This document shows positions 3,570-6,310 of a DNA stretch of 64,000 nt, piece after piece. The translations under genes and the position numbers were made by a program. Origin of the DNA: Nitrosotalea devaniterrae. Lineage in GTDB: Archaea; Thermoproteota; Nitrososphaeria; Nitrososphaerales; Nitrosopumilaceae. Every line of letters begins with the position of its first letter. Position 1 is the stretch's first letter. Location: contig LN890280.1 in NCBI GenBank assembly GCA_900065925.1, positions 736,451-800,450 on the forward strand. The letters are read 5' to 3'. The notes under the pieces were generated by a model. That model made no database searches. It was not told where the DNA came from and worked only from the letters and a program-made list of their open reading frames with translations.

Positions 3570-4490
3570 CTATTTGATTCTACCTTTTTCAAACTTTCCT
3601 GCCAAGAGCATGGGGACTTCGGCTGGTCTTTTGGCAACTGGTACGTTTGCTTTGGCATACATGGACACCTTTGATTCTGCAGATCCATAATTTCCATATA
3701 CTATTGCTCCTGCATGACCCATTCTCTTTTCTTTTGGAGCTGCTCTGCCTGCAATGTATGCAACAACTGGCTTGTCAAATTTAGTGTCAATGATATGTTG
3801 TGCAAGCATCTCTTCGGCATCTCCTCCAATTTCGCCTACTACTACAATGCCGTCAATGTTTGCACCGTTTCTTATTGTGTCAAATGCTTGGATTAGTGGT
3901 GCACCGTTGATTGGATCTCCTCCGATTCCAAAGCATATGCTCTGGCCAAAGTTTGCAACTGATAGGTTGTGTGATACCTCGTACATCAAAGTTCCACTTC
4001 GTGATATTACTGCAATTCTTCCTTCCTTGAATGGTGATGCTGGCATGATTCCAATCTTGATTATTCCTGGAATTATGATTCCTGGGGTGTTTGGACCTAC
4101 AACGATTGCATCTTTTTTCTTTGCCAAATCAACTATTGTCAAGGCGTCTTTTACTGGAACATGTTCTGGTATTGCAATTAGTAATTTAATTCCAGATTCC
4201 AGAGCTTCAACTGCTGCTGACAAGAAGAATTTTGCTGGAACAAATATTATTGAAATCTTGGCACCTGTTGCACTTACTGCTTCATTCATTGTCTCATAGA
4301 TTGGAACTCCTGCGTGCTTTTGTCCTCCCTTTCCAGGTGTTACACCTGCTACAACGTTTGTACCATATGCCAACATTTGTTGTGTATGGAATGCACCAAA
4401 CTTGCCCGTGATTCCCTGGACTATGACAGGCTTCTTTTTGTAATCCTTATCGCCTTCTTTGCCAATTAATAATTCGAAAAGATCAACCAT
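3570..4490 (-). CDS. sucD: succinyl-CoA ligase (ADP-forming), alpha subunit
   Basis: 306 residues. The CoA-binding Rossmann part is N-terminal (VIVQGITGKFGAFHTQQML), and the catalytic phosphohistidine is in RMGHAGAIV near residue 260. Other marks are VGPNTPGIIIPG and FGIGGDP. The beta subunit gene lies directly upstream with an 8-bp overlap, so both subunits are translationally coupled. The enzyme links succinyl-CoA and succinate with ATP formation in the TCA cycle; in this lineage succinyl-CoA is also an intermediate of the carbon fixation cycle served by the mutase at the start of the window. Confidence 0.94.
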   Translation of the reverse strand: MVDLFELLIGKEGDKDYKKKPVIVQGITGKFGAFHTQQMLAYGTNVVAGVTPGKGGQKHAGVPIYETMNEAVSATGAKISIIFVPAKFFLSAAVEALESGIKLLIAIPEHVPVKDALTIVDLAKKKDAIVVGPNTPGIIIPGIIKIGIMPASPFKEGRIAVISRSGTLMYEVSHNLSVANFGQSICFGIGGDPINGAPLIQAFDTIRNGANIDGIVVVGEIGGDAEEMLAQHIIDTKFDKPVVAYIAGRAAPKEKRMGHAGAIVYGNYGSAESKVSMYAKANVPVAKRPAEVPMLLAGKFEKGRIK

Positions 4491-5595
4491 TTTTATTCAT
4501 CTCAATTACTGCTGCATTTATTGCTTCTTCAATGGTGTCAAACATCTTTGTCCTTGAACCCTTGAGCATCTCTTTTGACTTATCAGCTTCTGCACCTGAC
4601 ATTCTTGCAAATACTGGAAGATCAATTATTTTATCATCATATGCTTTGATAAATGCTGTTGCAACTGTTGTGGTCTTGACAATTCCACCGTAAAGATTTA
4701 CCAATATTCCTCTTACTTTTTTCATCTTGCTAATCAAGGTGAGTGCTTCATACACTGTCTCAGTCGTTGCACCGCCGCCTACGTCCAAAAAGCATGCTGG
4801 CTTGCCTCCATTGTCTGATAACATGTCAAGAGTTGACATGACAAGGCCTGCACCGTTTCCTACTACTGCAATGTTTCCATCAAGTTCGACAAGTGAAAAT
4901 CCACTCTTTTCTGCTCGCTCTTCAAGCTCTGATACTTCTTGGAATTTACGCAATTCATCATGTCTAAACATTGCATTGTCATCTATGATGACTTTACCGT
5001 CTAGTGCCACAACTGAATCATCACCTAAAACTGCAAGTGGATTAATCTCTGCAAGCTCTGCTTCTTTTTCTATTGTAATCTTTGCTAACTTTTGTAAAAT
5101 GTCAATAAACTGGGTTAATGGTTTGTCTTTTAGTCCCATCTGTTTTCCTACTTCTTCTGCTGTTTTTGCATCAACGTTGCCCAGTCCTACCTCATGTATG
5201 ATTTGATTCTTGACTGATTCAATCTCAACACCGCCCTCTCCTGATGCAATAATGGTGTAGCATCTTTTGCCCCTGTTCAAAAACAATGAAAGATAAAGTT
5301 CCTTTTTGATGTCTGCCATTTTTTCAAGTAAGATTGCTTTTGTCTTTTCTCCCTTGACAACTTTTTGCATAATATCTGGATATTTTAGCTCAAACTCGTC
5401 TGCGTTTTGGCATTTCTGGATTGCACCTGCCTTTCCTCTTCCTCCAACTGCCATCTGTGCCTTTATGACAAAAGGAAATCCTAGAACTGCTGCATCCTTT
5501 CTACCTTGTTCGATATCTACTGATGTCAATCCCTTTGGAATTGGAATTCCGTAATCTGCAAACAATGACTTTGCTTGATACTCTAGTAGACGCAT
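4483..5595 (-). CDS. sucC: succinyl-CoA ligase (ADP-forming), beta subunit
   Basis: 370 residues with an ATP-grasp fold. MRLLEYQAKSLFADYGIPIP is the typical N terminus, VIKAQMAVGGRGKAGAI is the nucleotide-binding segment, AEINPLAVLGDD gives metal ligands, and FLDVGGGATTETVYEA with VRGILVNLYGGIVKT is the CoA-ligase half. It binds ADP/ATP and succinate and pairs with the downstream sucD product. The ATG at 5595 lies 27 bp from a TATA-like element, so the mRNA is probably leaderless. Confidence 0.95.
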   Translation of the reverse strand: MRLLEYQAKSLFADYGIPIPKGLTSVDIEQGRKDAAVLGFPFVIKAQMAVGGRGKAGAIQKCQNADEFELKYPDIMQKVVKGEKTKAILLEKMADIKKELYLSLFLNRGKRCYTIIASGEGGVEIESVKNQIIHEVGLGNVDAKTAEEVGKQMGLKDKPLTQFIDILQKLAKITIEKEAELAEINPLAVLGDDSVVALDGKVIIDDNAMFRHDELRKFQEVSELEERAEKSGFSLVELDGNIAVVGNGAGLVMSTLDMLSDNGGKPACFLDVGGGATTETVYEALTLISKMKKVRGILVNLYGGIVKTTTVATAFIKAYDDKIIDLPVFARMSGAEADKSKEMLKGSRTKMFDTIEEAINAAVIEMNKNG

Positions 5596-5626: not shown

Positions 5627-5823
5627 CTGTTTGATGTCTTGTCATCCTATAATACGTGGATCAAAAATGTTGTTTGGATCTAACTGCAATCTGGTGTTAT
5701 CTGTGCATGGTATTTTGATCACAAGTCTTGAAATGATATCTTGGATAATGTACTCAGATTACCGCATGTGGATTTTTGCATAATACAATTATACCAGTAT
5801 GCCGATTTCAACTAAGGTTTCAT

Positions 5824-5832
5824 AATTATATT
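5824..5832 (+). promoter_or_regulatory. TATA-like element before the candidate ncRNA
   Basis: AATTATATT centred at 5828, about 26 bp upstream of the first base of the structured region. The spacing fits archaeal TATA-to-start distance and is the main reason to place the RNA on the plus strand. The rest of the gap (5627-5823) shows nothing else I can support. Confidence 0.4.
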
Positions 5833-5850
5833 ATGATACGAAAAGTGTTT

Positions 5851-5936
5851 TGGGGTCGGTACCGAGTGTCAAATGACACCCTCTTGCCTGGTCCGGCCAC
5901 CAAAACTATGAATATTTTTCATGGTGGTATTTTTAA
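5851..5936 (+). ncRNA. candidate structured non-coding RNA
   Basis: In the 385-bp gap between sucC and the next gene there is one strongly foldable stretch. GGTCGG (5854-5859) pairs with CCGGCC (5893-5898); inside it ACC/GGT, GAG (5864-5866)/CTC (5881-5883) and TGTC/GACA close an AAAT loop. A second arm pairs CCACC (5897-5901) with GGTGG (5923-5927) and ATGAA with TTCAT, so the two arms share two bases at 5897-5898 and may be alternative folds. An AT-rich TATA-like element (5824-5832) sits about 26 bp before the first stem, and ATTTTTAA follows the second. I do not recognise a known family. No convincing reading frame is present. Confidence 0.45.
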
Positions 5937-5980
5937 GCCTCATTATCATAAAACTTGAATTTTATGATATATCAGTTATT

Positions 5981-6310
5981 CTAACTGAATTGCTCTTCCA
6001 GGGTATCTACACACTGGAGAAAAAGATCCTTGCTTTTTCGCATGAGCCAGTTTGGAAACTCGTCTAGTGAAAAGACAAATTGTTGCTGGAAACTTGGCAC
6101 TACGCCCCCTCCTGATGTGATGACCTGTACTATGATGAATCCTTCAGTGATGGTACAAACGGTCTCTTGGTATGCCTCTTCCTCCTCTTCTAGTGTATTT
6201 CTGTACAATACAAGCGGGGTCTTGGTCTTTGTAACATGTGAAGATGCCTTTTTTAATAAAACCGCAAAGTGTGAAATGAGCCAGCCGTCTAGGGTTATCT
6301 GCTTTGGCAT
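5981..6310 (-). CDS. hypothetical protein, 109 residues
   Basis: A complete frame starting MPKQITLDGW. It is acidic with a glutamate run (LEEEEEAYQE), a hydrophobic beta segment (GFIIVQVIT), a glycine turn and an aromatic C-terminal half (FVFSLDEFPNWLMRKSKDLF). No signal peptide, membrane helix or known motif is visible. It lies 45 bp downstream of the ileS stop on the same strand and could be expressed with ileS or from its own promoter. Function unknown. Confidence 0.6.
   Translation of the reverse strand: MPKQITLDGWLISHFAVLLKKASSHVTKTKTPLVLYRNTLEEEEEAYQETVCTITEGFIIVQVITSGGGVVPSFQQQFVFSLDEFPNWLMRKSKDLFLQCVDTLEEQFS

Follow-up and report, generated by a model that had tools for sequence, protein, structure and literature searches.

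A 60-nt imperfect hairpin upstream of sucC is very probably a standalone small RNA gene, read from the minus strand, in Ca. Nitrosotalea devanaterra (source genome: a single contig of 1,805,304 bases; "the window" is the 64,000-nt stretch of it analysed here). Its promoter is of the same build as those of an ammonium transporter gene and of an ORF next to a P-II gene, and its loop is complementary to the start sites of two other ammonium transporter genes, amt1a and amt1b. We consider it fairly likely that the product would be a trans-acting small RNA of the nitrogen regulon, which blocks the translation of amt1a and amt1b while the amt2/PII regulon is on. The features of the locus are collected in Table 1.

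Table 1. Features of the small RNA locus (coordinates are positions in the window)
Feature	Position	Strand	Remark
sucC, neighbour outside the RNA unit; has a promoter of its own close by, TTATAAAG, ~30 nt ahead of the ATG	4483..5595	minus	sequence
Second palindromic block, GTATAATTGTATTATGC / GTATAATTRCATTATGC, preceded by RATGAGRT	5782..5798	minus	~50-60 nt 3' of hairpin
Small RNA gene, imperfect hairpin of 60 nt, kept in relatives	5847..5906	minus, 5' end 5906	covariance-model matches and covariation
Unpaired loop GGCAAGA (TCTTGCC on the plus strand), proposed seed for pairing with amt1 starts	5882..5888	minus	invariant
TATA box of the RNA promoter, TTAAAAATA	5928..5936	minus	fixed distance to hairpin
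BRE-like spacer ATGAGGC	5937..5943	minus	exactly 7 nt in every copy
Palindromic operator, 26 bp, TATCATAAAATTCAAGTTTTATGATA	5944..5969	.	present in 26/26 copies

The element lies in the gap between sucC and a 109-aa ORF (5981-6310). Both genes are on the minus strand, as are ileS and sucD on either side. The sequence-only reading had proposed a structured RNA in this gap. That part of it stands, since a stable G/C-rich hairpin, covariation and a dedicated promoter were found; the strand, the promoter and a proposed switch had been misread, and the true extent is 5847-5906. The hairpin folds better than shuffled sequences on both strands, with z of -3.45 on the plus strand (0/200 shuffles as stable) and -2.81 on the minus strand (3/200). 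A lack of compensatory changes in relatives had been set beforehand as one half of the refutation, the other half being a missing transcript. Among 20 distinct sequences such changes were found in 21 cells (both sides changed) compared to 7.6 in shuffles, with both-sided changes at six pairs, and pairing is kept in 94.3% of cells compared to at most 50% for slid controls; as the alignment had been fitted to the structure, these figures are tilted somewhat in its favour. Rfam 15 covariance models, at gathering and relaxed thresholds, gave no family matching the window (the best local scores were 16 bits against a gathering threshold of 54, and 10 against 50), and ARAGORN found 0 tRNA/tmRNA genes in it. 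The earlier statement that the element could not be matched to tRNA, SRP RNA or RNase P holds in the Rfam covariance search.

When the paired cells are read on the minus strand, G-U pairs far outnumber C-A (33 vs. 4), which places the RNA on that strand. A plus-strand small RNA with a switch is extremely unlikely: the plus strand folds well too, but the G-U/C-A asymmetry argues against it, the conserved promoter faces the other way, and relatives do not keep the plus-strand TATA element near 5828-5838. The plus-strand T run (5928-5936), a would-be terminator, turned out to be the complement of the conserved minus-strand TATA box, 30 nt before the hairpin. The second arm of the supposed switch (CCACC/GGTGG) is for the most part confined to the window copy and its pairs are lost in relatives, so that there is no conserved switch. 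A candidate second hairpin 3' of the first gave a mean z of -0.8 over 26 sequences. The palindromic block further 3' is kept in both orientation groups (see below), in the majority of their copies, and it may mark the 3' end of the RNA or be another signal. A tiny leaderless coding gene has a negligible chance of being the explanation. A 24-codon frame with a GTG start can be read through the window copy, but the hairpin lengths of 57, 59, 60, 61, 62 and 63 nt seen among relatives break the frame, and the RNA structure is kept.

The element was first traced by a DNA search of same-genus genomes and then aligned. In the alignment, the hairpin core is nearly invariant, and a palindrome and a TATA box are found on its minus-strand upstream side. 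The loop GGCAAGA is the same in 26 of 26 copies, whereas the stems vary; its computed unpaired probability is 0.97-0.99. Covariance model R1 matched 25 of 37 Nitrosotalea genomes and gave no match above threshold outside Nitrosotalea in the sampled genomes of the family and order. Model R2, built from all 26 copies, added only one weak match (G074, E 0.44), which was treated as chance. The two models were run on as many as 250 genomes of the family and 300 of the order. Pattern matches in non-archaeal and viral sequences reached at most 20.9 bits, a level expected from chance matches to the search pattern. In the source genome the RNA is single-copy, no second copy being found. Genome G033 has two near-identical copies of the locus on contigs C25 and C39, probably because two strains were binned together. 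In G021 the RNA is absent and the palindrome and TATA box are still kept. In two other RNA-less genomes (G028 and G012; loci L111 and L112), the gap from the 109-aa ORF to sucC holds a GC-rich hairpin of a different kind (GAAACTGTGGGC...GCCTACAGTTTC).

The cassette points toward sucC in one half of the genus and away from it in the other half, at the same locus. On the sucC tree the two orientations correspond to the two halves of the genus, with a few losses. The sucC promoter listed in Table 1 is conserved at its distance from the ATG in both orientation groups and in RNA-less genomes. Because the cassette is inverted in half of the genus and sucC has its own promoter, the RNA is best read as a standalone gene and not as a sucC leader. 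A cis-acting leader (riboswitch or attenuator) would fit the half of the genus to which the window belongs, where the RNA is 5' of sucC on the same strand, but in the reversed group (group B) the RNA points away from sucC, and we regard a leader as very unlikely. In most other genera examined, the distance from the 109-aa ORF to sucC is ~40 bp, which leaves no room for the RNA unit. Genomes of the inverted group have a 122-aa gene downstream of the RNA (L104:464-832), with no Pfam match and a promoter of its own; it is missing in the window's group.

The upstream region has the same order in 26 of 26 copies: the 26-bp palindrome (TATCAYAA...TTRTGATA in most copies), a spacer of exactly 7 nt, and then a TTAAAA box. 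Measured from its first T, the box lies 29-30 nt ahead of the hairpin in 25 of the 26. Only two other exact palindrome sites were found in the source genome, 2.5 kb apart. One is located upstream of an ammonium transporter gene (PF00909, E 1.4e-106) and the other in front of a 249-aa ORF that diverges from a P-II protein gene (PF00543, E 4e-20), and both share the palindrome-7 nt-TATA layout with the RNA gene. Matching operator sites are present at the amt gene and the 249-aa ORF/PII locus in many members of the genus, and the operator-7 nt-TATA arrangement is also found at amt of the nearest outgroup genus. Because this palindrome promoter is common to amt2 and the ORF divergent from PII, we place the RNA gene in an ammonium/nitrogen regulon, a membership that the shared operator makes probable. 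The 249-aa ORF (L145:5797-6546, minus strand) has C-terminal cysteines and no Pfam match. In G010 and G031 (L158:1501 and L167:1501) the operator, 7 nt and a TTAA-type TATA box are found upstream of a short secreted-protein-like gene, possibly a further member of the regulon. A related palindrome, TRACATAA-N10-TTATGTTA, is located upstream of the long Amt gene in several other Nitrosopumilaceae genera (L182-L202) and is a possible family-wide nitrogen operator.

The palindromes, the inverted cassette and the insertion into what is a ~40-bp gap in other genera could also be expected of a DNA-level element without any RNA, such as a mobile-element end, a recombination site or a barrier. We think this very improbable as well: the element is single-copy in the source genome and always at this locus, its pairing tolerates wobble as RNA pairing does, its promoter spacing is fixed, and its operator is common to amt2. 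A standalone RNA gene remains the preferred reading.

The Amt/PII/amo gene arrangement of Ca. N. devanaterra has been described previously (PMC4836417). In that work amt2 was named as the putative high affinity transporter gene and amt1a and amt1b as low affinity, with amt2 transcripts over tenfold higher (PMC4836417). From gene order and locus-tag numbers, we infer that the operator-bearing transporter gene is amt2, that amt1b is the paralog at 978 kb and that amt1a is the one at 1174 kb. Both amt1 paralogs start at UUG within A-UCUUGCC, and UCUUGCC is the exact complement of the RNA loop. TCTTGCC was found at 20 of 20 readable paralog-1 starts and 14 of 14 paralog-2 starts; the 34 sites are not independent, as the two paralogs share ancestry. 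Between -38 and +29, A-TCTTGCC is the sole contiguous invariant block common to both paralogs. The amt1 orthologues of genera without the RNA have TCTTGCC in 0 of 7 cases, their starts being ATGCC, ATGGC, ATGGT or GTGCC. In 475 kb of sampled stretches (about a quarter of the source genome), from which the background rates are taken, two other genes out of 458 show any candidate start set in this kind of sequence. The computed duplexes between loop and amt1 range from -11.5 to -13.6 kcal/mol, and the predicted pairing is short (7-8 bp). The TATA boxes upstream of amt1 suggest an mRNA leader of 0-3 nt, and with such a leader the loop pairing would cover the start codon. The match was noticed after the amt1 start sites had been read and is thus partly post hoc. 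We rate the amt1 start codons as likely targets of the RNA.

The amt1 genes were detected in 20 of the 22 genomes that carry the RNA and in 0 of the 8 that lack it, outgroup included (Fisher p 8e-6, inflated by the shared ancestry of the genomes). The tree gives 4-5 independent contrasts. Most of them agree with the association (on average 3.7 of 4) and none contradicts it; the phylogenetic sign test gives p 0.125, and 4-5 contrasts are too few for significance. The two RNA carriers without detected amt1 are incomplete assemblies (G017, 70%; G036, 78%). Alternatively, the RNA may be a standalone member of the nitrogen regulon whose loop has a protein or some other RNA as its partner, with the amt1 match a coincidence. 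The loop is internal and asymmetric, and two invariant C-G pairs close it, a shape that proteins commonly recognise; the match is just 7 nt long, and TCTTGCC occurs often in the genome (135 times in the 475 kb). Such a coincidence would have to place the match exactly on the start codon in both paralogs, at all 34 readable starts, and to leave it out in the genera without the RNA; the RNA and amt1 are also lost together. We therefore regard this alternative as rather unlikely and prefer the pairing with amt1.

In the preferred reading, the TATA promoter with the palindromic operator 7 bp upstream would drive the RNA, amt2 and the ORF divergent from PII, and a putative regulator bound at the shared operator would turn on the RNA together with the amt2/PII regulon. 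The folded transcript would expose the 7-nt loop GGCAAGA. In the cell, this loop is predicted to pair with the amt1a and amt1b mRNAs, which would be nearly leaderless, across their UUG start codon (5'-A-UCUUGCC), and amt1a and amt1b translation would be blocked as long as the amt2/PII regulon is on. Judged from its sequence, the locus carries what is looked for in a trans-acting small RNA: its own promoter, a compensated fold and complementarity to a target. We lean slightly toward a further proposal, that this new small RNA family acts as an ammonium-transporter switch, in which one operator turns on the RNA along with amt2 and the PII-side ORF, and both amt1 genes are silenced by the RNA via their leaderless UUG starts. 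Ammonium sensing and the control of uptake are largely unknown in ammonia-oxidizing archaea, and the papers that we searched describe no small RNA with a target in this group. If the proposal is true, this would be, to our knowledge, the first small RNA with a defined target in Thaumarchaeota (Nitrososphaerota). It offers a testable circuit (operator, small RNA and two named target genes) in archaea that dominate acid-soil nitrification, and it suggests a route to block translation of leaderless mRNA, namely by pairing directly over the start codon.

Compared with known archaeal systems, the Nitrosotalea operator is presumably unlike the NrpR operator. Tan1, from the uncultured planktonic marine group II Euryarchaeota, is likewise an archaeal non-coding RNA; unlike the RNA described here it is known only as an abundant transcript, and it is set apart by description (PMC5069720). 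The sRNA162 and sRNA41 of Methanosarcina mazei are archaeal trans-acting intergenic small RNAs from nitrogen-response studies. sRNA162 targets a transcription-factor mRNA and sRNA41 the ACDS mRNAs via ribosome binding sites (PMC5867862), whereas the Nitrosotalea RNA is predicted to bind nearly leaderless mRNAs at their start codon. Membership in the sRNA154 family, which has two target-binding loops, was considered and found unsupported: the element here is a single hairpin, and its model matches only Nitrosotalea among the genomes of its own order that were searched. sRNA154 of M. mazei shares with the Nitrosotalea RNA an archaeal origin, an intergenic location, restriction to a genus and a tie to nitrogen supply (PMC5867862), the last being probable for the Nitrosotalea RNA. 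It acts in trans on nitrogen-assimilation mRNAs, including by masking of translation initiation (PMC5867862), a mode of action that is predicted on the Nitrosotalea side. The two organisms are unrelated and the Nitrosotalea RNA is a single hairpin with its seed in an internal loop. The targets also differ, being nifH and glnA for sRNA154 (PMC5867862) and, by prediction, the ammonium-transporter start codons for the Nitrosotalea RNA.
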